The translations under genes were made by a program, and so were the position numbers. The notes below the pieces were generated by a model that saw only the letters and a program-made list of their open reading frames with translations, was not told the DNA's origin and ran no database searches. 42,814 bases of DNA from Bacteroidota bacterium (GTDB taxonomy: Bacteria > Bacteroidota > Ignavibacteria > UBA10030 > UBA8401), in contig JACFMZ010000001.1 of the NCBI GenBank assembly GCA_019455105.1, forward strand, positions 53,826 through 96,639, in the 5' to 3' direction. The stretch's first letter is position 1. Each line of letters starts with the position of its first letter. Below, piece by piece: positions 3,445 to 18,648 of the stretch.

Positions 3445-5838
3445 ATGAAAAAACTCATCAATATTATTATTCTTTTTTTTCTCTCCGTCTCTTTTCTTTC
3501 GGCTCAAATTGAAACACAGCCCGAATCTTCAACGGCTGCTCATATTTTCACGCCGCATGGAATAGTTTTTACCGACGACAATCATTACACGCTGTTTCTG
3601 GAACACAACGGCACCATAGAAGAACTTGTCTCCGCACCGGGCGCAGGATATTATTTTACCGTCTCTCCGGACAGAAACACCATCGGCTTCAAATATATTT
3701 TTGATGACAATCTGCAATCACCGGCACTACTTGACCTTACGACAAAGAATATCACCTATCTCCACTCGCCTTCGCCGAGAGCCGGGCAGGTTCGCTTCTC
3801 TAAAAACGGAACGATTGTCTATACCGTTGAAGAAGAAGCGTATATTCAAAAAGGAAAGACCACAAGAAAAGTTCATCTCGGAACCTATTCCAATATTGTT
3901 GACCTATCGCCGGATGATAACTTTCTCTCTTACAATAACGATGATGATCAGATTATTCTTCTGAACCTTTCTTCATTAGAGAAAAAACAAATCTCTGCAC
4001 AAAGCTCATTCTTTCCCCAATGGTCTCCGGCAGGAAATAAATTAGCGTATTCAAGTTTAGACGGAAAACTCTTTGTCTTCGATGCACAGTCCGAACAGAC
4101 AGCATCACTCGGTGAAGGATTAAATCCTGTTTGGATGAACGACGGCGGGTCATTGATTGCCGAGCGGAGAGAAACCGAGAAACATGAGCTGCTGAATTCG
4201 GATTTATATCAACTTTCTGTTGACGGGAAACAGACGAAACGGTTAACGAAGACAAAAAACTTATTTGAGACGGAGCCAAGTGTTACTTCTGCCGGTGAGA
4301 TTATTTTTCATGCACATAACGGTGAGGCAGTGTTGAAGTTAATGAAAGATGGCTCGGTAAAAACTGTATCCGTGCTTCAAACAGAAAAAGTAGCAGCGGC
4401 GAAGAAATCGAAAAAAACTTCCGGATTAAAGAAAACTGCTTCTCCTCAAGCGTATTTTGAAATGCCGTACACTAATCAAGTTTATGACACGCCGGATTGG
4501 TATAACGGAAGTGCGGCGTGCGGGCCAACAACAGCCATTATGGTGCTGGCATATTACGGCATATTACCGGAATGGAAAGTCTGGATTTCCGCCAATAAAC
4601 CTTCCCCCGGACATTATAGTGCGTATGGAAATTATATTTGTGAGAAATATCGTTTTCGAGGAATAAGCTATATTCAAATAGCTGAAGATCCAAACGGAAA
4701 ACAATCATGGGGAGGGTACGGTTTTATGTGGAGCACCGGAAGCCCGTTTACCCGCATGGGTTCGTATTATAAAAATCATGGTTTAACGGCGCTGCGGCAA
4801 GGAACTGATTCCGATGGCGGCGGAGCTCCATCCAATGATTTTATTGTAAACGAAGTGACAAACTTAAGACCTTACTCTCTCTGCAACGGATTAACAACGG
4901 CCGGACACATTATCGCAATAAACGGTATTGGTACTGAAAAACATACCTTAATTACAAATGACCCGTACGGAAATAAAAATATCAGCTATCCAAGTACAAA
5001 CGGAAGAGTCGCACAATATGATTGGCCCGGTTATAACAATGGATACAAAAATCTTAATAATATTTGGTGGGGTATTTCCGTCAGCGCTCCGCAAACAGCA
5101 ACGGCTGATACTCTTGTTGATGATCTTAATTTCTTAAAAGGTTTTTCAATGAGCAACACCGGCACGGCAACAATGTACAGCTGGAATGACATGAACAGCG
5201 GATATAACGGTCACTTATGGTATGTAAAAACAAAACAAAGTGATACCTGTTTTGCCGTTTGGAAGCCGTCGCTTCAGAAAGACGGAATGTATGAAGTTTC
5301 TGCGTTTATTCAAGCAAGTAATGCCAAAGCTGCGCGTTATACAATTAACCATAAAAACGGCACTTCGATTGTTGTTGTTGATCAAAGCCAGGTAAAAGCA
5401 GATTGGCTTTCATTAGGCGTATTTCCTTTTGAAAAGAATTCGAATTCGTACGTAAAACTCGGCGACGGCAGCGATTCCACCGGACAGGAAATTGTCTTCG
5501 ATGCAATTCGGTGGACTTATCAGGCTCCTCTTTCAGTCGAAAGAAACAATCATACCGCTATTCCGACAACAATGCAGTTAAAGCAGAATTATCCGAATCC
5601 GTTTAATCCGTCCACAACAATTATGTTTTCTGTTCCGGAAAATTTATCGGGAAAAACGGTTTCACTGCGGGTGTATAATATTCTTGGAGAAGAAATTTCT
5701 ACTTTAGTTAATCAGTTTCTTTCGGCAGGAGAATATTCCGTGGTCTTTAATGCCGAGGGTCTTGCTTCAGGTTTATATTTCTACCGGCTGCAGGCAGGAA
5801 ATACAATCTTAACACAACGAATGAATTTAATAAAATAA
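3445..5838 (+). CDS. T9SS-secreted multidomain protein: TolB-like propeller, C39-like cysteine peptidase, golvesin-like domain
   Basis: A 797-residue secreted protein. In order: signal peptide (1-20); about 300 residues of PD40/TolB-like propeller repeats (SPDDNFLSYNN, FPQWSPAGNKLAYSS); a C39_2-type papain-like domain around 340-550 with SAACGPTT, placing the nucleophile at C359, and AGHIIAING...LITNDPYG supplying H488 and D506; a golvesin/Xly-like beta domain at about 555-692; and a T9SS sorting domain from about 708 with NYPNPFNPSTT. The triad appears intact, so it may be an active extracellular peptidase or amidase, though some C39-like domains only bind. Its target is unknown. It stands alone between a 199-base gap and a shared terminator with the convergent GH94 gene. 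Confidence 0.85.
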   Translation: MKKLINIIILFFLSVSFLSAQIETQPESSTAAHIFTPHGIVFTDDNHYTLFLEHNGTIEELVSAPGAGYYFTVSPDRNTIGFKYIFDDNLQSPALLDLTTKNITYLHSPSPRAGQVRFSKNGTIVYTVEEEAYIQKGKTTRKVHLGTYSNIVDLSPDDNFLSYNNDDDQIILLNLSSLEKKQISAQSSFFPQWSPAGNKLAYSSLDGKLFVFDAQSEQTASLGEGLNPVWMNDGGSLIAERRETEKHELLNSDLYQLSVDGKQTKRLTKTKNLFETEPSVTSAGEIIFHAHNGEAVLKLMKDGSVKTVSVLQTEKVAAAKKSKKTSGLKKTASPQAYFEMPYTNQVYDTPDWYNGSAACGPTTAIMVLAYYGILPEWKVWISANKPSPGHYSAYGNYICEKYRFRGISYIQIAEDPNGKQSWGGYGFMWSTGSPFTRMGSYYKNHGLTALRQGTDSDGGGAPSNDFIVNEVTNLRPYSLCNGLTTAGHIIAINGIGTEKHTLITNDPYGNKNISYPSTNGRVAQYDWPGYNNGYKNLNNIWWGISVSAPQTATADTLVDDLNFLKGFSMSNTGTATMYSWNDMNSGYNGHLWYVKTKQSDTCFAVWKPSLQKDGMYEVSAFIQASNAKAARYTINHKNGTSIVVVDQSQVKADWLSLGVFPFEKNSNSYVKLGDGSDSTGQEIVFDAIRWTYQAPLSVERNNHTAIPTTMQLKQNYPNPFNPSTTIMFSVPENLSGKTVSLRVYNILGEEISTLVNQFLSAGEYSVVFNAEGLASGLYFYRLQAGNTILTQRMNLIK

Positions 5839-5839
5839 A

Positions 5840-5873
5840 AAATTGCTGCAGATATTTATTTCTGCAGCAATTT
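5840..5873. terminator. Bidirectional terminator between convergent genes
   Basis: A perfect 13-bp inverted repeat AAATTGCTGCAGA (5840-5852) and its complement (5861-5873) flank an 8-base AT loop. The outer A/T pairs give a T-rich tail on both strands. It lies two bases after the T9SS gene stop and 27 bases after the GH94 stop, so it probably terminates both. Confidence 0.85.
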
Positions 5874-5899
5874 CCTTTTCACAATAAGAAAAATTTTTC

Positions 5900-8299
5900 C
5901 TACGCTCCCATAACAACTTCTATTACATTCAACGAACCTTCTTTTTGCGGAAGAATCGGAAGCGTAGTTTCTTTTCCGTTAAGAGTAACAGAAGCTACTC
6001 CTTTTTCTGCGCCGTTTGGATTTTTTACGGTAATCCGGTAGGTTGCACCGCGCCATTTGCGCACCACTTCAAATCCTTTCCACTCTTTCGGAATGCAGGG
6101 ATCAATCATCAGTCCGTTATACTCGGGACGGATTCCCAAAATCCATTTTGTTGCTGCCGTGTAATTCCATCCTCCGCTTCCGGTCAGCCACGGATGGCGT
6201 GCCCGTCCGTACGCGGTGTGATCTTTTCCCATAATAAACTGACAATAAGAATACGGCTCCGCTTCTCTTTTTTCAATGAGAGTATTTTGATTGTACGGCA
6301 GAAGATCGTTATACAATTTCATGGCAAGCGTTCCGCGTCCTAATTTACATTCGGCAATAATTGCCCACGGATTAGGATGGCTGAAGATTGCGCCGTTTTC
6401 TTTTATTCCTTTATACACGCGCGTAATATATCCGATATCATCATTCGGCTGAGAATACGTGGGCCAGCAAAGGTGCAGACCGAACGGCGAACCGAGATGT
6501 TCGTGCACGGCATCCATTGCTTTTTTTCCGTGCTCTTCGGAAGCCGCTCCCGAAAGAACCGCCCAGCTGTTGCTTTCTAAAAATATTTTTCCTTCGTCAT
6601 TTTCTTTCGTGCCGATCTTCATTCCCTTTTTTGTTATGCCGCGAATGTACCAATAGCCGTCCCACAATTCCCGCTCACAGGCTTTTTGCACTCTTTCTGC
6701 CTGAATGGAATATTTCTGCACATCGGCATCCCGCTGAAGATATTCCGCCGCGGAAATAAATTCTTTCAGCGCCCAATATAGCATAAAAGAAACCATGGCG
6801 CTTTGCCCGCCGCCGAGATTTAAGCAGTCATTCCAGTCTGCCCGAAGACCAAGACAGATTCCGTTCGGCGCGGTTTGCTCTAAGCTAAAATCTAATGAAC
6901 GCTTTAAATGGTCGTACACCGTTGCTTCTCCTGTATCGGCAAACGGCACCATCACATCAAAAAATTTTGCGTCGCCTGTTTCACGAACAAAATCACAGAT
7001 TGAGCCGATAATCCACAGCGCATCATCAGAACAGACATCTTCCATGCCGTGAATAATATCCGAAGCGCTCGGTGCCGGCACAACCGTCGGCAGTTTAACA
7101 TTCGGCAGATCGTTTCGTTGTGGTTTAAATACTTCCGGATCAAAAAGATGAAGTCCGTACCCTTTGCTCACCTGGCCGTGAAGCAATTCAAAAATGCGCT
7201 CTTTTACTTTTTCCGGATTGGTATGAACCACCGACATAATATCCTGCGAGGTGTCGCGGTATCCTAATCCCGTGCGTCCGCCCACTTCTATGAACGAAGC
7301 AAAGCGCGACCACACAACGCACGTTTCCGCCTGATACAGCGTCCATGCATTAATCATGGTATTCAGCCCTTCGTTCGGCGTTGCACAGTGAAAGATGGAC
7401 TGCTTTCTTCTCCAATACGTGGCAAGTTCAAGAAACGCATTATCCACATTTTTGAAATCGGAATATTTTTTGCGAATCCGATTTCCTTCTTTTCTGCCGC
7501 CGACACCAAGCATAAAGATAAGCCGCTGTTCTTCCCCTGGATTTAAGGAAATTTTTTTATGCAGCGCGCCGCAATGGTTTCCGCCGAGTTCCGTGCTGTT
7601 GCTGCATCGGCCGTTTTCCACGGCAGCAGGATTCGTTTCCGTTTTATATGCTCCAATGAATTTATCACGCACGCAGTCGTAACTATCCGGCTCAACGTTT
7701 GAAGTAAAGTAATGAAACGTCCACGGCTCGTAGAAAAAATCATATTCGATAATACCTTCCGCGTAATGAGAACCGCTGGCGTAGAGCGACATTTGCAGAT
7801 TCTGATTATCAATTTCAATGTGATGGAAAGAAAATTCCACATACGAAAAAATGCTGAGTGTTCTCGGCGTGTCGGATGAATTTTTTATTTTTACATCCCA
7901 CAATTCCACATCATCTTCTATGGGAATAAATAAAATCTGCTCGGCATGTATTCCTTTATAATCGCTGATGAATTTTGAATACGACATACCGTGGCGGCAT
8001 TCGTATTTTGCCTTGGTAAAATCTTTTCCTGCGGGCTGCCAAGAGATGGACCAAAATTCTCCCGTTTGATCGTCGCGGATGTACACATAATGTCCGGGAC
8101 GGTCGAGCGGAATTCCGTTCTGCCGAAAGCGCGTAATGCGGTGATGTTCTGCTGTTTTATAAAAAGAATATCCGCCGGCGTTGTTTGAAATAACCGTGCA
8201 AAAATCTTTTACGCCGAGATAATTTGTCCACGAAGCCGGTGTATCGGGGCGTTCAATAACGTATTCATTGTTTTTATTGTCAAAGTAACCGTATTGCAT
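5900..8299 (-). CDS. chbP: GH94 N,N'-diacetylchitobiose phosphorylase
   Basis: Cytoplasmic GH94 enzyme (799 residues, no signal peptide) that splits N,N'-diacetylchitobiose with phosphate into GlcNAc-1-phosphate and GlcNAc. The whole protein follows the Vibrio chitobiose phosphorylase pattern as I remember it: an N-terminus of YGYFDN type, WTNYLG, FCTVISNNAGGYSFY, GHYVY, then AETCVVWSRFASFIEVGG and the catalytic segment GLRADWNDC, whose WND aspartate is D491. The C-terminus has PYSYCQFI, DPCIPKEW and WRGATYRI. Cellobiose phosphorylase is the main alternative; the chitinase immediately upstream favours chitobiose. The start has AAAGGA seven bases before the ATG, 11 bases after the chitinase stop, so the two are almost certainly cotranscribed. 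Confidence 0.92.
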   Translation of the reverse strand: MQYGYFDNKNNEYVIERPDTPASWTNYLGVKDFCTVISNNAGGYSFYKTAEHHRITRFRQNGIPLDRPGHYVYIRDDQTGEFWSISWQPAGKDFTKAKYECRHGMSYSKFISDYKGIHAEQILFIPIEDDVELWDVKIKNSSDTPRTLSIFSYVEFSFHHIEIDNQNLQMSLYASGSHYAEGIIEYDFFYEPWTFHYFTSNVEPDSYDCVRDKFIGAYKTETNPAAVENGRCSNSTELGGNHCGALHKKISLNPGEEQRLIFMLGVGGRKEGNRIRKKYSDFKNVDNAFLELATYWRRKQSIFHCATPNEGLNTMINAWTLYQAETCVVWSRFASFIEVGGRTGLGYRDTSQDIMSVVHTNPEKVKERIFELLHGQVSKGYGLHLFDPEVFKPQRNDLPNVKLPTVVPAPSASDIIHGMEDVCSDDALWIIGSICDFVRETGDAKFFDVMVPFADTGEATVYDHLKRSLDFSLEQTAPNGICLGLRADWNDCLNLGGGQSAMVSFMLYWALKEFISAAEYLQRDADVQKYSIQAERVQKACERELWDGYWYIRGITKKGMKIGTKENDEGKIFLESNSWAVLSGAASEEHGKKAMDAVHEHLGSPFGLHLCWPTYSQPNDDIGYITRVYKGIKENGAIFSHPNPWAIIAECKLGRGTLAMKLYNDLLPYNQNTLIEKREAEPYSYCQFIMGKDHTAYGRARHPWLTGSGGWNYTAATKWILGIRPEYNGLMIDPCIPKEWKGFEVVRKWRGATYRITVKNPNGAEKGVASVTLNGKETTLPILPQKEGSLNVIEVVMGA

Positions 8300-8310: not shown

Positions 8311-9477
8311 TTAGTGAAGGGAGTTGTTCCGGGAAAGATTTCTATTCAGCGCATCGAGCAGAGGCGTTGAGCCGTCGGAAAGATAATCGCCGGTAATTTC
8401 CCAAATAATAACTCCGCGGAGATGATGATGAAGTACATACCGCGCTTTTTCCGCAACCGATTCCTGATCGTCGAAGGAAATCAGCGTGTTCTTTTCCGGC
8501 AAAATGATGTACGGAACTTTTGCGTTGCTGTCCCATCTTCTGTTCTGCTTTGTCAGAACGTGAACGATGTTGTAATAAAATGCGCCAGACGGGGAAAACA
8601 ACGCTGTATCCATACCGCTCTGAGCTTTGTAGAGCCCTGCGCATTGCGAAAAAGACTGTCCGTAAAATGGAACGCCGATGTTGATCTTTTGTGAAGGAAC
8701 ATGTAACGTTTCGCGATAGTAGCGAACGGTTGCGTCAATAGTGTTTACAGTATCCAGCGCCGAAGAAGCATACAGCGCGGAATTATGACCGCTGATTGGA
8801 GACCACGAACCGTAAAAATCGTAGGTCATAATATTTACCATATCAAGGAGCGGAAGAAGCGAATCGATTTCAAAATTATTCAAAAGTCCTGCGCCGGCAG
8901 GAAATGCCGCCGTGAGAAGAATTTTTTTCTGTACAGTTTGTTCAAGCGCGCGCAGTGTATCGCGCAGCGTTTGCAGAAGAAGCGTGTAATTTCTTTTGTC
9001 ATTTGCGGTTCCGTTGTGTTCAGCCATTCCCGGAAATTCCCAATCAATATCAATGCCGTCAAAACCGAGCGTGCGGATACAATCGGCGCACGACTGTGCA
9101 AATTTTTTGCGCGTGGAATCAGACGAAGAGACCGCCGGAAAATTTCCGGAATCTTCCCACCCGCCGAGCGAAAGCAGAACCCGTACTTTGTGCTGATGAG
9201 CCAATTCGATGATTGACGGTTTTCTGTTTTTATGAAATAGCGCAATCGAATCCCCTTGCGCATCTCTGCCGGTAATTTCACCGCTCGGAAGCGGATACCA
9301 GAAGGCGTAATTCAACATTGTTACTTTAGAAAAGGAAACTTTTTCATGGCTCATCAACGCATCGGAGTGTTTCCATTTCCACGAGGGAAAATAGCCGATA
9401 ATTTCTTTGCTCTGTCCGTAACCGTTCAGAAAAAATAGTGCCGTAATAATTGATAAAAAGAATATTCTGTTTTTCAT
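8311..9477 (-). CDS. GH18 chitinase, exported, probably periplasmic
   Basis: A 388-residue retaining chitinase of family GH18. A signal peptide covers about residues 1-21. The barrel carries SLGGW (103-107) and the catalytic motif DGIDIDWE (140-147) with acid/base E147. MTYDFYGSW and the late tryptophan segment VIIWEITGDY also fit. It has neither a T9SS sorting domain nor a visible chitin-binding module, so it is more likely a periplasmic enzyme trimming imported oligomers than a secreted depolymerase. It sits directly before the chitobiose phosphorylase, which would use its main product. The ATG at 9477 is the natural start because the signal sequence begins there. A 154-base leader containing two hairpins separates it from the permease gene. 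Confidence 0.92.
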   Translation of the reverse strand: MKNRIFFLSIITALFFLNGYGQSKEIIGYFPSWKWKHSDALMSHEKVSFSKVTMLNYAFWYPLPSGEITGRDAQGDSIALFHKNRKPSIIELAHQHKVRVLLSLGGWEDSGNFPAVSSSDSTRKKFAQSCADCIRTLGFDGIDIDWEFPGMAEHNGTANDKRNYTLLLQTLRDTLRALEQTVQKKILLTAAFPAGAGLLNNFEIDSLLPLLDMVNIMTYDFYGSWSPISGHNSALYASSALDTVNTIDATVRYYRETLHVPSQKINIGVPFYGQSFSQCAGLYKAQSGMDTALFSPSGAFYYNIVHVLTKQNRRWDSNAKVPYIILPEKNTLISFDDQESVAEKARYVLHHHLRGVIIWEITGDYLSDGSTPLLDALNRNLSRNNSLH

Positions 9478-9631: not shown

Positions 9632-10900
9632 CTATTGCGATACTGCTTCTGTTTCTCTAAACGGAACTAACCACGCTGCCACAAACGAAGGAATTGTGGC
9701 AATAATTACCCAAATAAAAAAAGTTTTATATCCCAGATAATCGCTCAAAAATCCGCTGAGCATAGAAGGAATATTAAATCCGAGCGCCATTAACGCCGTT
9801 GCAAATGCATAGTGAGCCATTTTATATTTCCCCGGCGCAATCTGCTGCATCATAAATAATGTTAAACCGATAAACCCGAAGCCGTAACCGAAATATTCAA
9901 AAACCACCAGCGATTCAATCACGTAAAAATTTTCCGGCTGCACAACAGCCAGTACGGCGTACACTGCAAACGGAATATTAAAGAAAGCGCATAAAATTAG
10001 TAGCGATTTTCGCAGACCGCGATGCGCCGTAAAATATCCCGATAAAATTGAGCCGAGAACAAAGGCAAGGGGAGGAAAGAATCCGTACAGAATTCCTAAC
10101 TCTTCTGTACTTAATCCTAAACCTCCCTGCTCGTGGGAAGCTCGCATAAACAACGGCACAATTTTTATTGCCTGTCCTTCGGCAAACCGATAGAGAATAA
10201 GAAACAGAATTGCCCAGCCGATATATTTTTTCTGAAAGAATGTTTTTACAACATCTCCAAATGTTGAAAAAGCCTCCTTTACAGAATTTACCGTTCCCGA
10301 GCTGCCGCCGGTAGGAAGAAATTTTATATGATACAAACTAAGGACAACCATAATAACGCCGAACATTCCCATCACAATCATCCATGCCGGTTCAACACCG
10401 ATTGATTTTTCTAATTTTCCGGCAATGATAACAAAGACTCCCTGTGAAAGAATTTTTCCCACATTATAAAACGCCCCCTGCCACCCGACATATTGAGCCT
10501 GCAGTGTGTTGGAAAGAACATTCACATACACGCCGTCCGCCGCAATATCATGCGTGGCAAAGTTGAAAGCAATAACGGCAAAGAGCGCCAAAGAGATTTG
10601 AAAATAATTCGGCAGTTGAAGCGAGAGCGCAACAAGACCAAACACAATACCGCCGAAAAACTGCGTTGCTACAACAAAATATTTTTTTGTTTTAAACATC
10701 TCCAGCAGCGGACCCCACAATGGTTTCAACATCCATGGCCAGGCAACAAGCGTAGTAAAGAAAGCAATTTCTCCGTCGGATTTTCCTAAACTTTTATACA
10801 TTAACACGGAGACAACATTAACAATAACAAAAGGAAGCCCTTCTGCTATATAAAGTGTCGGAACCCATAATTTTGGAGATGTTGATTCGGAAGATGTCAT
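9632..10900 (-). CDS. MFS permease of the AmpG/PAT type, probable chitobiose transporter
   Basis: A 422-residue inner-membrane protein with about 12 hydrophobic segments. It matches the AmpG-like branch of the major facilitator superfamily: an N-terminal LYIAEGLPF segment, WMLKPLWGPLLE after the second helix, and ATHDIAADG in the middle of the N-terminal half. AmpG imports GlcNAc-anhydromuramyl disaccharides during wall recycling. Placed between a TonB receptor module and chitinase/chitobiose phosphorylase, this copy most likely imports diacetylchitobiose or short chitin oligomers; that substrate is inferred from context. No Shine-Dalgarno sequence is visible at the ATG. A peptidoglycan-recycling role remains possible. 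Confidence 0.85.
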   Translation of the reverse strand: MTSSESTSPKLWVPTLYIAEGLPFVIVNVVSVLMYKSLGKSDGEIAFFTTLVAWPWMLKPLWGPLLEMFKTKKYFVVATQFFGGIVFGLVALSLQLPNYFQISLALFAVIAFNFATHDIAADGVYVNVLSNTLQAQYVGWQGAFYNVGKILSQGVFVIIAGKLEKSIGVEPAWMIVMGMFGVIMVVLSLYHIKFLPTGGSSGTVNSVKEAFSTFGDVVKTFFQKKYIGWAILFLILYRFAEGQAIKIVPLFMRASHEQGGLGLSTEELGILYGFFPPLAFVLGSILSGYFTAHRGLRKSLLILCAFFNIPFAVYAVLAVVQPENFYVIESLVVFEYFGYGFGFIGLTLFMMQQIAPGKYKMAHYAFATALMALGFNIPSMLSGFLSDYLGYKTFFIWVIIATIPSFVAAWLVPFRETEAVSQ

Positions 10901-11011: not shown

Positions 11012-12769
11012 TTATTTCATCAGAACCATTTTTTGAACCTGACGGCTTGTTCCTTGTTCAAGAACGCCGAAATAAATGCCTGATGTTTGATTCGACATAT
11101 CAACGCGAACTTCGTACGCGCCTGCCGATTGAATTTTATTCACAACAGTTTTCACCGCTTGTCCTAGAATGTTATACACCGTAAACTTCACAAGTCCTGT
11201 TGTCGTTAAGGTATATTGGAATGTCGTGCTCGGGTTAAACGGATTCGGATAGTTTTGCGATAACGCAAATTTTTCCGGAACTATTTGATTAGCTGCCTGA
11301 ACACCGGTCGGGCCGTAGCCGGCATTAAACCATCGCGGATCGCCGTACGGTTTGCCGTCCGGAGCAGTAAGATTATTGGAATACTTTAACGATGCAGCTT
11401 CAGAAACGGGCCATGCGGGAACCCAATTTGCCGCGCTTCCAACGGTTGTAAGAGCTGCACCCCAAACATCGTTCGCCAGCGAACCGGAACGCGCTTGAGC
11501 AAACCATTTTGCTAAACCGATGCCTGTTGTTGCAGATTGATTCATGACACCGGTAATTACTGAACCATAACCGGGATCTTGATTGGTAATATTACCGGAT
11601 TCCGACAGACCGGGCCAGTGAGCTTTATCCGCAAACATTGCTTTTGTCGGATCATTCATCCATGACGGCGTAAGAATTTTCATTCCTGCGGCAGACCACG
11701 TTGCCGTATCATTCCAATTCTGCCAGAGAGTTGTAACCGATTGAGACCAATAACAAATATTATTTTTTACTTCTACAGTTCTTCTCGCTTCTGCAATAGA
11801 ATCAATTTTTGCGTTTGTTGAGTCATTGGGCTGAAACATTTTAGCATTATCTAAACTAAGATTCTGCAATGCTAAAACACCATACGTTTCATCAGGGCTG
11901 AACAAATTATCCCACCACGGATTTTCTGTAAAGCTGACACCACCAACATAATTATTGTAGAAAATATTATTATTAATTTTTGCATTAGTCACATTAAAAA
12001 TAAAGAAAGGATTTTTGAATGTATAGGCAACCGTATTATGCGTAAACTCAAAATAGCGGGTATAATATTTGGTCACCGGCGCTGCGGCATAACCGTTTAT
12101 TGCTGTCATGGTATTATTTCTAAATACAATGGAGTCTGTATATACAGAGCCAACGGAATTGCGAAGTACTTCACCAACATACCATTGGTTCGGATGAACA
12201 AAATTTCTAAAGATACAATTTGTAATAAAAAAACTATCCCAATTGCCGTTATATCCAAAACCAAACGCTAACCAATAATCAAATACGAGATTATCTGCAT
12301 AGACTTTTATATTGTCTGCAGATGCTTGAATTGCAATACCCGCAGTATTCGCACTGCTGACTCCGCCTTCCGGAACAATTGATAAACCTAAGAGATACAA
12401 ATTTTTAAAAGTAACCTTTGTATCCTTTTTGCTTACAATAAATAAATTGGCAGGAATTGTTTGATCGCTGAGAACATCCGGTTGAATAGTCGGAAGTTTG
12501 CCGTTTGCACCCGGTACGCCGATAAATGTTACGCTGTTATTAATCGTTATCGGGCCATCATAAATGTATGTTGTATCGGTGCTTACCAGCTTATACACTT
12601 TATGCGCCAGAGTTCCGTCGGCGGCTGTATCTGCCATAACTATTTTATCCAATATTCCATCACCTTGTGTGGCGTATACAACAAGCGTATCGCCTGCTGC
12701 TAATGTTGTTCGCGGAACAAGCAGAACGCAGCTCATTACCGCTAACGCTATCATGGTAAATCGTTTCAT
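11012..12769 (-). CDS. T9SS-secreted parallel beta-helix protein, probable surface glycan-binding partner
   Basis: A 585-residue secreted protein: signal peptide (about 1-24, ending TTLAAG), then a long region of right-handed beta-helix character with asparagine-rich turns (ITNCIFRNF, IVFRNNTM, FEFTHNTV, INNNIFYNN), and a T9SS sorting domain over the last 85 residues (NYPNPFNPSTT, ending KMVLMK). The fold resembles DUF4957/DUF5123-like proteins found beside TonB receptors in polysaccharide loci. No catalytic motif is evident, so binding is more likely than lysis, although polysaccharide lyases share the fold. AAGGAG lies nine bases before the ATG. It is downstream of the TonB receptor, in the place a SusD gene would take. 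Confidence 0.8.
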   Translation of the reverse strand: MKRFTMIALAVMSCVLLVPRTTLAAGDTLVVYATQGDGILDKIVMADTAADGTLAHKVYKLVSTDTTYIYDGPITINNSVTFIGVPGANGKLPTIQPDVLSDQTIPANLFIVSKKDTKVTFKNLYLLGLSIVPEGGVSSANTAGIAIQASADNIKVYADNLVFDYWLAFGFGYNGNWDSFFITNCIFRNFVHPNQWYVGEVLRNSVGSVYTDSIVFRNNTMTAINGYAAAPVTKYYTRYFEFTHNTVAYTFKNPFFIFNVTNAKINNNIFYNNYVGGVSFTENPWWDNLFSPDETYGVLALQNLSLDNAKMFQPNDSTNAKIDSIAEARRTVEVKNNICYWSQSVTTLWQNWNDTATWSAAGMKILTPSWMNDPTKAMFADKAHWPGLSESGNITNQDPGYGSVITGVMNQSATTGIGLAKWFAQARSGSLANDVWGAALTTVGSAANWVPAWPVSEAASLKYSNNLTAPDGKPYGDPRWFNAGYGPTGVQAANQIVPEKFALSQNYPNPFNPSTTFQYTLTTTGLVKFTVYNILGQAVKTVVNKIQSAGAYEVRVDMSNQTSGIYFGVLEQGTSRQVQKMVLMK

Positions 12770-12976: not shown

Positions 12977-15925
12977 TTAATTTAATGTCCAGCGCAGTCC
13001 TAATTCTCCCACAAAGCCATACTGCTGCATTGTTCTCGGAATCTGATTAGAAGCAGCAATTGTCGTTCTATCATACGCTCCGTTAAGATTTACCAGATTA
13101 GAATACAATTGTAATCCCGGCAGCGGTAAATCTTGTTTCAAGGAAATATCCCATCTTCGATACGGAGAGGTTGTGGCAACAAGCTGTGGCCATTGATTGG
13201 GACCACCGAAAATATCTGCCGTATATTGAAATGAAACGCGTATTGAAAATCCCATTAAATCATATCCCAGCGAAAGATTAAATAACTCATTCGGCTGTGC
13301 TATCAATCGGTAGGTGAGAGTCGTGTCGACAATCCGTTTATTTCTTCCTGAACCCAATATCCATGTAATCGGATAAACAGATGAAGATTTTGAGTGTGTG
13401 TAATTAACATTCAAAACAACATTATCAAACGGCGACGGCAGGTACCAAAATCTTGTCTGCCAGTCAAGTTCGTATCCGTACACTTCGCTTCTATTCGGAT
13501 TATTAATTTGAGTGGTTATTGCCGCCGTAAGCGTTGTAGAATTTCCCACATAGCGCTGAGGATAATAATCATAAACAGCTAAACCGCTTCGGTTAAATGT
13601 CCAAGAATAAATGATATCATCAATATATTTTACAAATCCGCCGACAGAGAATAATCCGATATAATTATCATGAAAAGAGAGATAGGCATCATAATTTTTT
13701 GCCCGAGACGGCTTCAAATTATCATTGTTATATAAAATAGCATTGCTTAACGTTACCTGAATCCGCGGATAAATTCCGCTATAATCTTGATAAGAAATGG
13801 TATTAGAATACGATACGCGTGCGTCTAACCAGTCAAACGGCTGCCAGCGAACGGAAATATCAGGCAGCCAATACGGATACACGTGTGTTACCGTGGTATC
13901 GTAAATTTTTGAGTAAGAATCATAAAAAATCTGCGGATCAATACCCTGGTAACCGGTATATTTCGAGCGAAGTTCTTGATAACGAATTCCGGGAATAATG
14001 GTAAGTGCCGAACCAATTTTCATAACATCCATAAGATAAAAGGCGTTTACCTGCTCTGTGCCGGAATAATATTGCATTTTTGATACCGACATATTATATC
14101 CGTATCCGATCTGTCCTCCGCTGTCGGAAATCATTTTTGCATTATCATGCAAATGATTGGCAACCATCTCCATCTTGCTTTGGTTCAGTGGATAATACAT
14201 TTCATAATCGCCGTTCAAAAATGTACCGTAGTGAAAATTCGGATCAACAAATAACGACATGGGAATTGCCGTGCCGTACAACGCCGCCTCTGGAATAATA
14301 TCGGCAATTGCTTTTGCAGCAAATTTTGCACTCGCCTTATCAAAACCCTGCCCGGTATATTGTTCGGCAGTATTAGAACGCGTTTGATACCGGATTTTAC
14401 CGCCGAATTTCAGCGTCGTCGTAATAAGATCAGAAACATTCAACGGCATATCTAAATCCACCGATCCGGTTAATGCACGTTCGCGTGAAAAATTACTGTT
14501 TGAATTAATCGTGGTTAAAATTGTATGGGAAATATCGTTCGGCGCGGCACCGGGAATAATTTTCGGATCAATATTTTTTTGATTGGCAAACTGCGCAAGA
14601 TTCGCCGAATTCTGAAGAAATGAAAATACCCAGTCGTGCGGATCTTTGGTTTCAGAATACGTATGCGACGCCTTAATGGAAGAATGAACAAGAGAAAACT
14701 TCTGATCATAATGGAGAGAATTGGTAATAATGTTTGTGGTACTCTTTGCATAATTGAAATTAAAATTCCGAGAATTTGCCGCCGCCGAAACATTATAGAC
14801 TTCAGATCCATTATTGGTCGTCGTAATTCCTTGGCTGAGAAAATTTGAGAAAACTATTTTCCCTTCATCGGAAAGTTTATAATCCAGCACCAAGGTACCG
14901 TTAGCGCGCCTTCTGTCTCTCGGCACAAAACTCAGTGTTACAGCGGAAATAACATAATCGCTTCCCGAAGGATCGTTGCCGAATTGTCCGTAGGAAGCAC
15001 TCAGCTCGTTGGACGTTAAATTGGTTCGCTCTAAACCGGCCTGTGCAAAAACTCCTAAGCTTCCTTCAAAAAACCTATCTTCAAGACTGCCGACAAGTTT
15101 ATAATTATTTAATTTATTGTAAGCATTCGTTAATCCGTTGCGTGCACCCTGCATCGTTAATCCAAATATCGGGTTGCCCTCTTCCGTTTCCTTTGCTTCG
15201 CGCATTCTAAAATTTACCGTTCCGCCGATTACATCTGCAACTTGGTCGGCGGTAACTGTTTTTGTTACTTCAATACCTTCTAACATTTCTGAAGAAATTA
15301 CGCTTAAATCAACGCTGCGGTCATCGGCATTGGTCGACGCCATTTTTATTCCGTCAATCGTAATATTATTATACTTCGGCTGAATGCCGCGCACAACAAC
15401 CTGCTGTCCTTCGCCGCCGCTGCGCAGCACCGACATTCCTGGTAATCTTCCTACGGATTCCGCGGCATTGGCATCGTGAAGTTCTTGAATGCGGTCTTTT
15501 GAAACGGCATCAACCACCACCAATGAAGAAAGTTTTCTGTTTACCGCCCCAAGCTGTCCTTCTGCCTGCGCCGTTATAACAACGTCTTTTCCTTCTAATG
15601 CTTCCGGCCTCAATTTAAAATTAATAATGCGTCCTTCTTCCCGATGAATCACCACATTCATTTCCTGTGTTTTATATCCGAGATAACTAATTCGAAGAAC
15701 GTACGCTCCTTCGGTAACATTGGAGAGAAAATATCTTCCTTCAATATCCGAAGACGCGCCGAACCCCGTCCCTTTCAAAAAAACATTTGCGCCGGGCAGC
15801 GGTTCGCCCGTTTCCGAGTCGGTAATTGTTCCTTTCAAATCCGGTTTCAATTGTGCTGAAGCGCTGCAAACCGCAATTACCGTCAGAACAATTCCAATCG
15901 TAAAAATCCGTAAAAGTTTAAACAT
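12977..15925 (-). CDS. TonB-dependent outer-membrane receptor, probable chitin-oligomer importer
   Basis: A 982-residue receptor. It begins with a signal peptide (FTIGIVLTVIAVCSASAQ), then a carboxypeptidase-regulatory-like domain (KGTITDSETGEPLPGANVFL to SYLGYKTQEM). The plug follows, with NAAESVGRLPGMSVLRSGGEG, VVVRGIQPKYNNITIDG and EMLEGIEVTKT, then a 22-strand-type barrel ending in a terminal LGLRWTLN strand. The plug phrasing resembles the Caulobacter/Xanthomonas-type receptors (TIGR01782), which work without SusD. The frame extends to a TTG at 15961, but ATG at 15925 is preferred because the signal peptide starts there and CAGGT precedes it. It begins 40 bases after the ROK gene stop, so the two probably share a transcript. 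Confidence 0.9.
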   Translation of the reverse strand: MFKLLRIFTIGIVLTVIAVCSASAQLKPDLKGTITDSETGEPLPGANVFLKGTGFGASSDIEGRYFLSNVTEGAYVLRISYLGYKTQEMNVVIHREEGRIINFKLRPEALEGKDVVITAQAEGQLGAVNRKLSSLVVVDAVSKDRIQELHDANAAESVGRLPGMSVLRSGGEGQQVVVRGIQPKYNNITIDGIKMASTNADDRSVDLSVISSEMLEGIEVTKTVTADQVADVIGGTVNFRMREAKETEEGNPIFGLTMQGARNGLTNAYNKLNNYKLVGSLEDRFFEGSLGVFAQAGLERTNLTSNELSASYGQFGNDPSGSDYVISAVTLSFVPRDRRRANGTLVLDYKLSDEGKIVFSNFLSQGITTTNNGSEVYNVSAAANSRNFNFNYAKSTTNIITNSLHYDQKFSLVHSSIKASHTYSETKDPHDWVFSFLQNSANLAQFANQKNIDPKIIPGAAPNDISHTILTTINSNSNFSRERALTGSVDLDMPLNVSDLITTTLKFGGKIRYQTRSNTAEQYTGQGFDKASAKFAAKAIADIIPEAALYGTAIPMSLFVDPNFHYGTFLNGDYEMYYPLNQSKMEMVANHLHDNAKMISDSGGQIGYGYNMSVSKMQYYSGTEQVNAFYLMDVMKIGSALTIIPGIRYQELRSKYTGYQGIDPQIFYDSYSKIYDTTVTHVYPYWLPDISVRWQPFDWLDARVSYSNTISYQDYSGIYPRIQVTLSNAILYNNDNLKPSRAKNYDAYLSFHDNYIGLFSVGGFVKYIDDIIYSWTFNRSGLAVYDYYPQRYVGNSTTLTAAITTQINNPNRSEVYGYELDWQTRFWYLPSPFDNVVLNVNYTHSKSSSVYPITWILGSGRNKRIVDTTLTYRLIAQPNELFNLSLGYDLMGFSIRVSFQYTADIFGGPNQWPQLVATTSPYRRWDISLKQDLPLPGLQLYSNLVNLNGAYDRTTIAASNQIPRTMQQYGFVGELGLRWTLN

Positions 15926-15965
15926 ATATTTACCTGTTCTATGCTTTGTGTGAAAGAACAACTGC

Positions 15966-17168
15966 TTACAAGGCTATTTTATAATCTTGAAAAATTTTTT
16001 GAATGGGTAATGCCGCCGCTCCAAGAAGCACAGAATCATCACCGCGTGAACTCGGAACTATTTTGGTTTTGTTTTCCATTTGAAAATACTCACGCGCCGT
16101 ACAGACAGTATTAATTACCGGTTGAATCAAACTCCACGCGCGTATAATTGTTCCGCCAAGAATAATATATTTCGGGTCAAATGTGTTGATAATATGAGAG
16201 ATTCCTAAGCCGAGATATTCTGCTGCACGGATTAACGATGCTGTCGCCGCCGAATCACCGGTTAAAGATTTTGTTATTATCTCATCAATCGTTGCGTTGT
16301 GAATTTTTGCTTTTTCAAGATACGTATCCACAATTGCTTTTTCGGATGCATACATTTCCCAGCACCCTCTGTTACCGCAGGCACATTGCTTTCCTCCTTC
16401 AATCAGCATCATGTGCCCGTATTCTCCTGCTGCATGTGAGTTGCCGCTCAGAATCTGATTATCAATAACAATTCCTGCTCCAATTCCGCTGCCGACTAAA
16501 AGAAAAATAAAATTCGTCTGATCTATTTCGTACCGCCCGAACATAACTTCCGCCAGCGCCGAGGCTTTTGCATTATTCTCAATGGTTATATAATCAGCCT
16601 GAAGGTCGTGGTGACGAATGATTTCGGCAAGATCAACATTTTTCCATCCTAAGTTTGATGCGTAAAGAACTTTTGATTGAACCGTATCAACAATACCGGG
16701 GGTTGTAATTCCTATGCCGCGCAGAGTGGAGAGTGTACTTTCAGGATGAAGTTTTTTCAGCTCCTGAAAACTTTCATCGATCCGTTTCTTCGGATTCTTG
16801 GATACTGCCGGAATTATTTTTTTTTCAACAATTGAACCGTCAACATCTACAACGGCGACACTGGTGTACATTAAGTCAATGACAATTGAACCGACATAGT
16901 TCGTATTTTTTTTAATGGTAAGGTTCAACGGGTTACGGCCAACAATTTGATTTTTTAGTACATCTTCTTCAACCAATCCTTCTTGAAGCAAAGAAGTAAC
17001 AATACCTGAAACCGTGCTCTTATTTAATCCGGTAAGACGAGAAATTGCGGAGCGTGATATGGGTTGTTTAGAACGAATAGTATTAAGAATAATCGATCGA
17101 TTGATATTTCGACCAATTTTGGGATTGATGCTTAAAATTTGAGATGTTTTCTTCTTTTTAATTTTCAT
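15966..17168 (-). CDS. ROK-family transcriptional repressor with zinc-type sugar site
   Basis: A 400-residue ROK (NagC/XylR/Mlc-type) regulator. A basic N-terminus leads into a winged helix-turn-helix at about 36-66 (SRSAISRLTGLNKSTVSGIV). The ROK domain has ExGH at E249-H252 and the zinc-binding C262-x-C264...C269, all intact, plus GSGIGAGIVI. It is the first gene upstream of the TonB receptor (40-base gap) and has a ROK-type operator 73-95 bases before its ATG, so it probably represses itself and the chitin genes until its sugar ligand appears. The ligand is presumably GlcNAc or a phosphate of it by comparison with NagC, but this is inference. Confidence 0.9.
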   Translation of the reverse strand: MKIKKKKTSQILSINPKIGRNINRSIILNTIRSKQPISRSAISRLTGLNKSTVSGIVTSLLQEGLVEEDVLKNQIVGRNPLNLTIKKNTNYVGSIVIDLMYTSVAVVDVDGSIVEKKIIPAVSKNPKKRIDESFQELKKLHPESTLSTLRGIGITTPGIVDTVQSKVLYASNLGWKNVDLAEIIRHHDLQADYITIENNAKASALAEVMFGRYEIDQTNFIFLLVGSGIGAGIVIDNQILSGNSHAAGEYGHMMLIEGGKQCACGNRGCWEMYASEKAIVDTYLEKAKIHNATIDEIITKSLTGDSAATASLIRAAEYLGLGISHIINTFDPKYIILGGTIIRAWSLIQPVINTVCTAREYFQMENKTKIVPSSRGDDSVLLGAAALPIQKIFQDYKIAL

Positions 17169-17240
17169 CTCATTAGTTGATTGTTTCTACAAATTAATTA
17201 TAGGATAAGTATCAAACAGCATCGAATTTCAACTAAAATA

Positions 17241-17263
17241 TAATTTGTTTGGTAAACAAACTA
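17241..17263. promoter_or_regulatory. ROK-type operator palindrome upstream of the regulator-receptor operon
   Basis: The core TTTGTTTGGTAAACAAA (17244-17260) is a perfect 7-bp inverted repeat with a 3-base centre, extended by TA/TA at 17241-17242 and 17262-17263. Read on the minus strand it starts TTAGTTTGTTT, very like the operator half-site of XylR, a ROK repressor, as I remember it. It lies upstream of the ROK gene start at 17168, inside AT-rich DNA where a promoter is expected. Confidence 0.75.
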
Positions 17264-17397
17264 ACCGATTTTAACATTCTTCTGTTTTAAAGTCAAGAAA
17301 AATTTTCTGAAAATTTAATTTCTAATGAAAATTTTTCATTGACACAAACTTCAGACCAAGAGATTTTTTGGTGATATGGCTGGATTTGCCTGGAAAA

Positions 17398-18648
17398 CTA
17401 AACTTCGCTGAAGAAATTTGTGCGTGGAGAGTAAACAGAAAAAGTATGAAGCGGTTCAAACATTTCAAACAAAACTACGCTCGCAGCTCCTTTTGCAACA
17501 CTGTCGTCTCCAAAGGAGGCGGATTTCACCTGCACCGCTTCTACCGGGATTGAAAGAAGATCTTTGTGAATTTTTTCACGGATAAGATTTGATATTTGCG
17601 GACAGCACTGCGAAAATTTTCCTCCTAAAATTATCATTTCAGGGTTGAGTGTGTTGATGAGATTTATGCTGAGAATACTCAACAGTGTGGCACACTCATC
17701 AATTATTTTTATTGCAATGCTGTTTCCTTTCTCGGCTTCGCCGGCAACTATTTGCGGCGTTACCACAACATCTTCGGAAAGCTTTGAATGACGTTTAAAA
17801 CTTTCAACTATATTTGCATCGGTTAATATTTGACCGAAAATTATCTGTCCGTTATATAACATCGGGCAAATTTCTTTGTAGTGCGATGCCGGCTCTAATT
17901 CTGTATATCCAATTTCTCCGGCAGAGGAGGTAAAACCGCGGTGCATGTGGCCGTTAATCATTATCCCTGCGCCGAGTCCGTCGCCGATATAAAGATAGAC
18001 AAAGTTTTTCACACCTTTTGCCACACCGAGAAGATATTCTCCCAGAGCCATTGTCTTAACGTCGTTCTCCACGTAGATGGGAACCTTAAATGTTTTCTCT
18101 AATTCCGCACTCATGGATTCCCCTTCCCACGATTTCTTGTTGTGGGAAACCGTTAAGGAGTTTGTAGCATAGTTAATTAACCCTTGAACGCCGATGCCGA
18201 TGCCGACCAGCTTTGACTGCGGGTGACCGGATAATTGAAGAATGTGTTGAATGGATTCTTGGACTTTTTTAAATACTTCTTGGGGTGTTGTTTCAAGCGC
18301 GTAGTGAAAGGTTGTGCTTTGAAGAAGCGCAGCATTAAGGTCACAGAGAATAATAGTTGCATGAGTCATTCCAACATCAACTCCGGCAACCAGACCGGCA
18401 AGCGGAAGAAAGCGAAGCAGCGTTCTCTTTCTGCCGACTTTGCCGTTAATTTCTACCTTTCCCGTTTCTTCCAGAAATCCTGTTTTGATAAGCTTGGCGA
18501 CAAGTTCTGTAACATAGGCTTTATTTAAATTACATTTTTTCGCAATTTCAACGCGGGAAATTTCTTTATGATCGCGTACGAGCCGCAGAATCCGGACTTC
18601 GTTCGGTTCGCGAATAAGCATTGAACGCTGGCTGATTACATTCCACAC
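17398..18648 (-). CDS. ROK-family regulator with degenerate zinc/sugar site
   Basis: A 416-residue ROK protein with an N-terminal helix-turn-helix (about 30-58, SRVEIAKKCNLNKAYVTELV) and a ROK fold (VAGVDVGMTHATI, PIYVENDVKTMALGEYLLG, IGDGLGAGIMING). The usual ExGH is E245-I-G-Y248, and the cysteine cluster is lost, with only C261 left, so zinc cannot be held in the normal way. It is probably a regulator with an altered or different ligand, not a sugar kinase. The GTG at 18648 has no clear ribosome site; ATG at 18621 is a possible start that would remove nine residues. It lies 229 bases upstream of the second ROK gene in the same direction. Confidence 0.85.
   Translation of the reverse strand: MWNVISQRSMLIREPNEVRILRLVRDHKEISRVEIAKKCNLNKAYVTELVAKLIKTGFLEETGKVEINGKVGRKRTLLRFLPLAGLVAGVDVGMTHATIILCDLNAALLQSTTFHYALETTPQEVFKKVQESIQHILQLSGHPQSKLVGIGIGVQGLINYATNSLTVSHNKKSWEGESMSAELEKTFKVPIYVENDVKTMALGEYLLGVAKGVKNFVYLYIGDGLGAGIMINGHMHRGFTSSAGEIGYTELEPASHYKEICPMLYNGQIIFGQILTDANIVESFKRHSKLSEDVVVTPQIVAGEAEKGNSIAIKIIDECATLLSILSINLINTLNPEMIILGGKFSQCCPQISNLIREKIHKDLLSIPVEAVQVKSASFGDDSVAKGAASVVLFEMFEPLHTFSVYSPRTNFFSEV

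Follow-up and report, generated by a model that had tools for sequence, protein, structure and literature searches.

A predicted XylR-type operator at the head of a regulator-led chitin operon in a little-studied Bacteroidota lineage

Results

The window, by which we mean the whole 42,814-nucleotide stretch of DNA analysed here, carries on its minus strand an operon that begins with the gene for a ROK-family repressor, ROK1 (15966-17168). This gene is followed by those for a TonB-dependent receptor recognised with Pfam and NCBIfam (12977-15961, the true start likely being an ATG near 15925), a secreted protein with a T9SS C-terminal sorting signal that has orthologs in most related operons (11012-12769), an AmpG-like MFS transporter (9632-10900), a GH18 chitinase-family enzyme (8311-9477) and a GH94 phosphorylase (5900-8299), the transporter and the GH18 enzyme being identified by domain searches. 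An intrinsic terminator with a 16-bp stem and a T run (5837-5876, minus strand) closes the operon, and no terminator-like sites were found in the minus-strand gaps within it. Neither Rfam nor tRNA scanning gave a match in the window. By sequence, the GH94 enzyme is clearly of the N,N'-diacetylchitobiose phosphorylase type, matching chitobiose phosphorylase (PDB 1v7v) with 1172 bits versus 542 for the next entry, which supports the description of this region as a chitin locus in an earlier note on the same DNA. Relatives keep most of this gene order, and several of them have an added second GH18 gene and a ROK sugar kinase gene directly after the regulator. This kinase gene is seen at loci L111, L130, L142, L143 and L144 and is absent from the operon in the window; the only kinase-like ROK protein of the genome is that of contig C196, which has no operator.

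ROK1 is one of three ROK proteins in the genome, together with a second regulator, ROK2, and a kinase-like protein of 319 residues. It combines an N-terminal winged helix-turn-helix, matched by HTH models, with a ROK domain (Pfam PF00480, 5e-58), in which the zinc motif CxCGxxGCxE is present as CACGNRGCWE and the sugar-site motif ExGH as GEYGH; in the orthologs the cysteines, E and H of these motifs are invariant. Alignments place its recognition helix at TGLNKSTVS, and ROK1 and its orthologs share the form TxLNKS[TS]VS. The ATP motif of the kinases, DxGxT, is missing (VIDLMYT in ROK1 versus IDIGGT in the in-operon kinase of a relative). Around residue 199 ROK1 reads IENNAKA where relatives read VENDAKA, with loss of the Asp that serves ROK kinases as catalytic base. 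The best NCBIfam model for ROK1 is NagC, far below its cutoff.

The intergenic region ahead of ROK1 contains the 17-mer TTTGTTTGGTAAACAAA (17244-17260), which the earlier note had described as a perfect 7+3+7 inverted repeat with further matching flanks. The perfect repeat is confirmed; of the three flanking pairs that follow, two match as well and one does not. Five perfect 7-N3-7 repeats were observed in the window against 4.6 expected, and at least one would arise by chance in a 229-nt stretch of such composition with p of about 0.08. The exact pattern TTTGTTT-N3-AAACAAA occurs once in the 3.03-Mb genome, as does the reversed control pattern, and with 3 mismatches allowed the genome matches of the 17-mer are not above those of the reversed control. 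Rarity of the palindrome was therefore dropped as evidence. Since such repeats occur at chance frequency, the repeat alone is weak evidence and comparison must decide.

Compared with known and orthologous sites, the element is best read as a 10-N5-10 rather than a 7-3-7 structure. On the minus strand this main predicted operator, O1 (17240-17264, TTAGTTTGTTTACCAAACAAATTAT), has the full form TTAGTTTGTT-N5-AACAAATTAT and lies over the predicted transcription start of a sigma-70-type promoter, TTGACT-17-TAAAAT (17268-17296, minus strand). This promoter was found by a consensus scan and occupies the same place in 14 orthologs as TTGACA-17-TAnnnT. The minus-strand leader reads TTGACT-17-TAAAAT-CGG-TTAGTTTGTTTACCAAACAAATTAT, so that O1 starts 3 nt past the -10 box and 96 nt ahead of the ROK1 ATG. 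With a scoring matrix built solely from genomes other than this one, O1 scores 25.5, the best in the window, and nothing in 3.0 Mb of simulated sequence equals it.

The earlier note had seen no second copy in the other intergenic regions of the stretch, and in this it overlooked a weaker putative operator, O2 (17173-17197, minus strand, TTAATTTGTAGAAACAATCAACTAA), situated in the same intergenic region as O1, 67 bp downstream of it and 5 bp ahead of the ROK1 start codon. O2 departs from the consensus arms at four positions, O1 at two, and its score of 18.4 with the other-genome matrix, second best in the window, was reached at one place in 3.0 Mb of simulated sequence. The remaining gaps between genes of the locus contain no operator site. 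Weaker sites corresponding to O2 are found 63-96 bp beyond O1 in most orthologs. No preference for a helical phase was found in this spacing, so that looping is not supported; the spacing is variable and unphased, and helical phasing of the two operators was rejected.

Orthologs of ROK1 occur in 17 of the 98 genomes of the order, this genome included. In 14 orthologs whose upstream DNA could be read, representing four families, a TTGACA-17-TAnnnT promoter is followed within about 0-12 nt by a site resembling TTAGTTTGTT-N5-AACAAACTAA. The order of promoter, operator and regulator is kept in these 14 orthologs while the letters of the spacer diverge, the mean majority fraction being 0.99 in the -35 box versus 0.53 in the 17-nt spacer. 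Strong sites in the orthologous loci, each read over up to 20 kb, occur only ahead of the regulator. One ortholog locus (L127) shows a good site but no clear promoter beside it, and another has a lower operator score (L124). This comparison of sequences supports the autoregulation that the earlier note had predicted, and on the same footing O1 is almost certainly a real repressor-binding switch under selection.

Some features of the relatives stand apart. At one locus (L121, genome G045), O1 (TTAGTTTGTCAAACAAACTAA) and an apparent O2 (TTAGTTGTTTTACAAGATTAA) both have a 21-bp layout instead of the 25-bp one, and the recognition helix of the ROK1 ortholog is TGLNKSSVS; a matched change of operator spacing and protein is possible. 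A ROK regulator from Calditrichia (L076, 42% identical) has XylR-like sites at 5189-5213 and 6456-6480, one near the start of the regulator and the other ahead of the following ROK kinase. The promoters of the ROK1 orthologs (14-15 of them, L127 having no clear one) are all of the classical TTGACA-17-TAnnnT kind. Bacteroidia promoters, in contrast, are of the -33/-7 type, and the order therefore seems to retain the ordinary sigma-70 promoter code.

Genome-wide specificity was assessed by pattern searches. When AGTTTGTT-N5-AACAAACT was sought genome-wide with up to 2 mismatches, the matches other than the operator all lay inside genes, and the degenerate motif with up to 1 mismatch was found at three places in this genome, namely O1, O2 and one before an acetyl-CoA synthetase gene. 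Across 15 genomes, 19 places match TNGTTNGTT-N5-AACNAACNA with at most 1 mismatch, and 13 of them are the ROK1 promoter; the reversed control has a similar total count without such a shared address. Frequent occurrence at random sites, which the earlier note had named as the finding that would speak against an operator, was not seen for the extended motif. Under looser matching, however, the motif does not outnumber its reversed control, so that only position and conservation carry the case.

The site before the acetyl-CoA synthetase gene (G000:C109:4050-4074, L147) is operator-like with one mismatch and lies about 110-135 nt ahead of the gene. The use of GlcNAc releases acetate, which made this site attractive. 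A wider regulon reached through this site was rejected, the site not being conserved in 11 relatives. No site was found upstream of the glucosamine-6-P deaminase gene or of the C196 ROK kinase gene. As far as can be seen, the regulon is one operon; the operator heads a regulator-led operon and is hardly if at all repeated elsewhere in the genome, as in a local autoregulated catabolic repressor. The only other strong site seen in relatives (G006:C128:6236-6258, L175 and L191) is XylR-like, scores 24.5 and lies in the promoter of a ROK2-like paralog with the helix CNLSKASVSEI.

The xyl operator consists of ten palindromic bp flanking five central bp, TTAGTTTGTTTGGGCAACAAACTAA (PMC12034463). O1 has this 10-N5-10 layout in common with the operator of Bacillus XylR, as well as the arm letters: compared with the palindrome TTAGTTTGTT/AACAAACTAA, 18 of 20 arm positions agree in O1, 16 of 20 in O2 and all 20 in the operators of two relatives. 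We further used two annotated records, from Bacillus velezensis and Priestia megaterium, in which xylR adjoins xylA and xylB. When the Bacteroidota matrix was run on their xylA-xylR intergenic regions, it found sites scoring 31.7 and 27.3. The recognition helices of these XylR proteins are TGLNKSTVS/TIS, and the TGLNKSTVS helix of ROK1 is identical to that of XylR. The earlier designation of the site as an XylR-like ROK operator is thus borne out by the published B. subtilis xyl operator, by both xylA-xylR regions and by the helix. XylR and ROK1 both have a ROK repressor domain with the zinc motif, at an overall identity of 31-32%, and many Firmicutes xylR genes, like that of ROK1, have sites in front of themselves (PMC2873477). 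Unlike Bacillus XylR, ROK1 neither adjoins nor controls xylA/xylB; it heads a chitin operon, has a second operator near the start codon and belongs to a different phylum.

Discussion

We propose that O1 is the operator through which ROK1 controls the chitin operon, a reading to which we assign a probability of roughly 0.87. The predicted pairing of ROK1 with O1 is drawn from the conserved promoter-operator architecture, the XylR-type code with its matching helix, the content of the operon and the near confinement of the motif to this promoter. ROK1 itself is best read as an autoregulating, chitin-sugar-responsive ROK repressor with an XylR-type operator code.

The site could also belong to ROK2 (17398-18648), the second ROK regulator encoded just upstream, or be common to both regulators. 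ROK2 adjoins the site, the ROK2-ROK1 order is also found in the relative G004, and in G006 the ROK2-like paralog is itself preceded by an XylR-like site. However, a ROK2 ortholog (E 1e-50) is absent from 11 genomes that keep ROK1, 10 of which have a readable O1, and the closest ROK2 orthologs lack a site of this kind. The recognition helix of ROK2, CNLNKAYVTEL, differs as well. On account of the phyletic mismatch we reject ROK2 as the binder, and from the sequences its action at O1 appears unlikely. In a relative without a close ROK1 (G013; L058 and L169), the ROK2 ortholog stands directly after the GH94 gene; ROK2 may therefore regulate another form of the chitin locus.

Even less probable is that ROK1 is a true XylR, a xylose repressor standing by chance beside chitin genes. 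Its operator and recognition helix do match those of XylR, but the proteins share just the overall identity given above, and the gene for the regulator accompanies those for chitobiose phosphorylase and GH18. A search of this genome and 14 relatives for xylose isomerase found none here and none in 7 of the relatives, and the three xylA loci of relatives that we read have no site. We give equally little credence to the idea that O1 works not as DNA bound by a protein but as a hairpin of the 5' leader RNA, through stability or attenuation. In the folded leader O1 does form a hairpin (z -1.75), and AT-rich DNA such as this has many perfect 7-N3-7 repeats, yet the letters of O1 are conserved across families beyond what pairing would need and match a known protein operator. 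Moreover, several of the orthologous sites have mismatched arms, the O2 copies are half-degenerate, and the window has no Rfam match.

In the mechanism that we infer, as regards binding, repression, the inducer and the role of O2 alike, ROK1, encoded by the operon's first gene, would bind both O1 and O2. In the absence of chitin breakdown products, a ROK1 dimer would occupy O1, across the transcription start and beside the -10 box, and block initiation. Such a position, on the transcription start, is characteristic of repression by ROK repressors. Repression was likewise argued from operator position in the study of Bifidobacterium longum subsp. infantis NagR (PMC9599254). A second ROK1 dimer on O2 would add to the block, either through cooperative binding or as a roadblock just ahead of the start codon, and O2 thus probably strengthens repression. 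When a chitin-derived sugar in the cytoplasm binds the ROK domain, the DNA would be released, and the regulator itself would be switched on together with the receptor, transporter and enzymes encoded behind it. That the inducer is a chitin sugar is quite probable, by analogy with ChiR and NagR; chitobiose or free GlcNAc are the most likely candidates, at somewhat better than even odds, and their phosphates are possible.

ChiR of Thermotoga maritima (PMC3750489) is a ROK regulator of a chitobiose operon with a single local regulon, and chitobiose, but not GlcNAc, releases its binding; the genes under its control are those for an ABC transporter, a hydrolase and nagAB, where the ROK1 operon has instead a TonB receptor and a phosphorylase. 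NagR of B. infantis is a ROK repressor of GlcNAc-related genes whose palindromic operators overlap promoter elements, and it is released by GlcNAc, GlcNAc-6-P and GlcNAc-1-P; it differs from ROK1 in its global regulon, with 11 sites, and in its connection with human-milk sugars (PMC9599254). NagC and Mlc of E. coli and Lmo0178 of Listeria have the same ROK fold as ROK1 but control different genes. Among proteins of solved structure, Lmo0178 is closest to ROK1 in sequence, and its recognition helix differs.

The system is of an ordinary kind in a new lineage. One may speculate, at about even odds, that in this uncultivated Bacteroidota order a ROK repressor responding to chitin sugars has kept or re-evolved the operator code of Bacillus XylR, so that DNA code and sugar specificity come apart, and that it works through two operators, one at the transcription start and one at the start codon, whose unphased spacing argues against simple looping. 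The XylR operator code would then be readable in different phyla even though the sugar pathway under control is not the same. The proposal assigns a specific regulator, operator and operon to chitin use in this little-studied branch of the Bacteroidota, and the natural series of 15 promoters offers a ready-made set for examining how ROK regulators read their sites and what role a second operator at the start codon may have.
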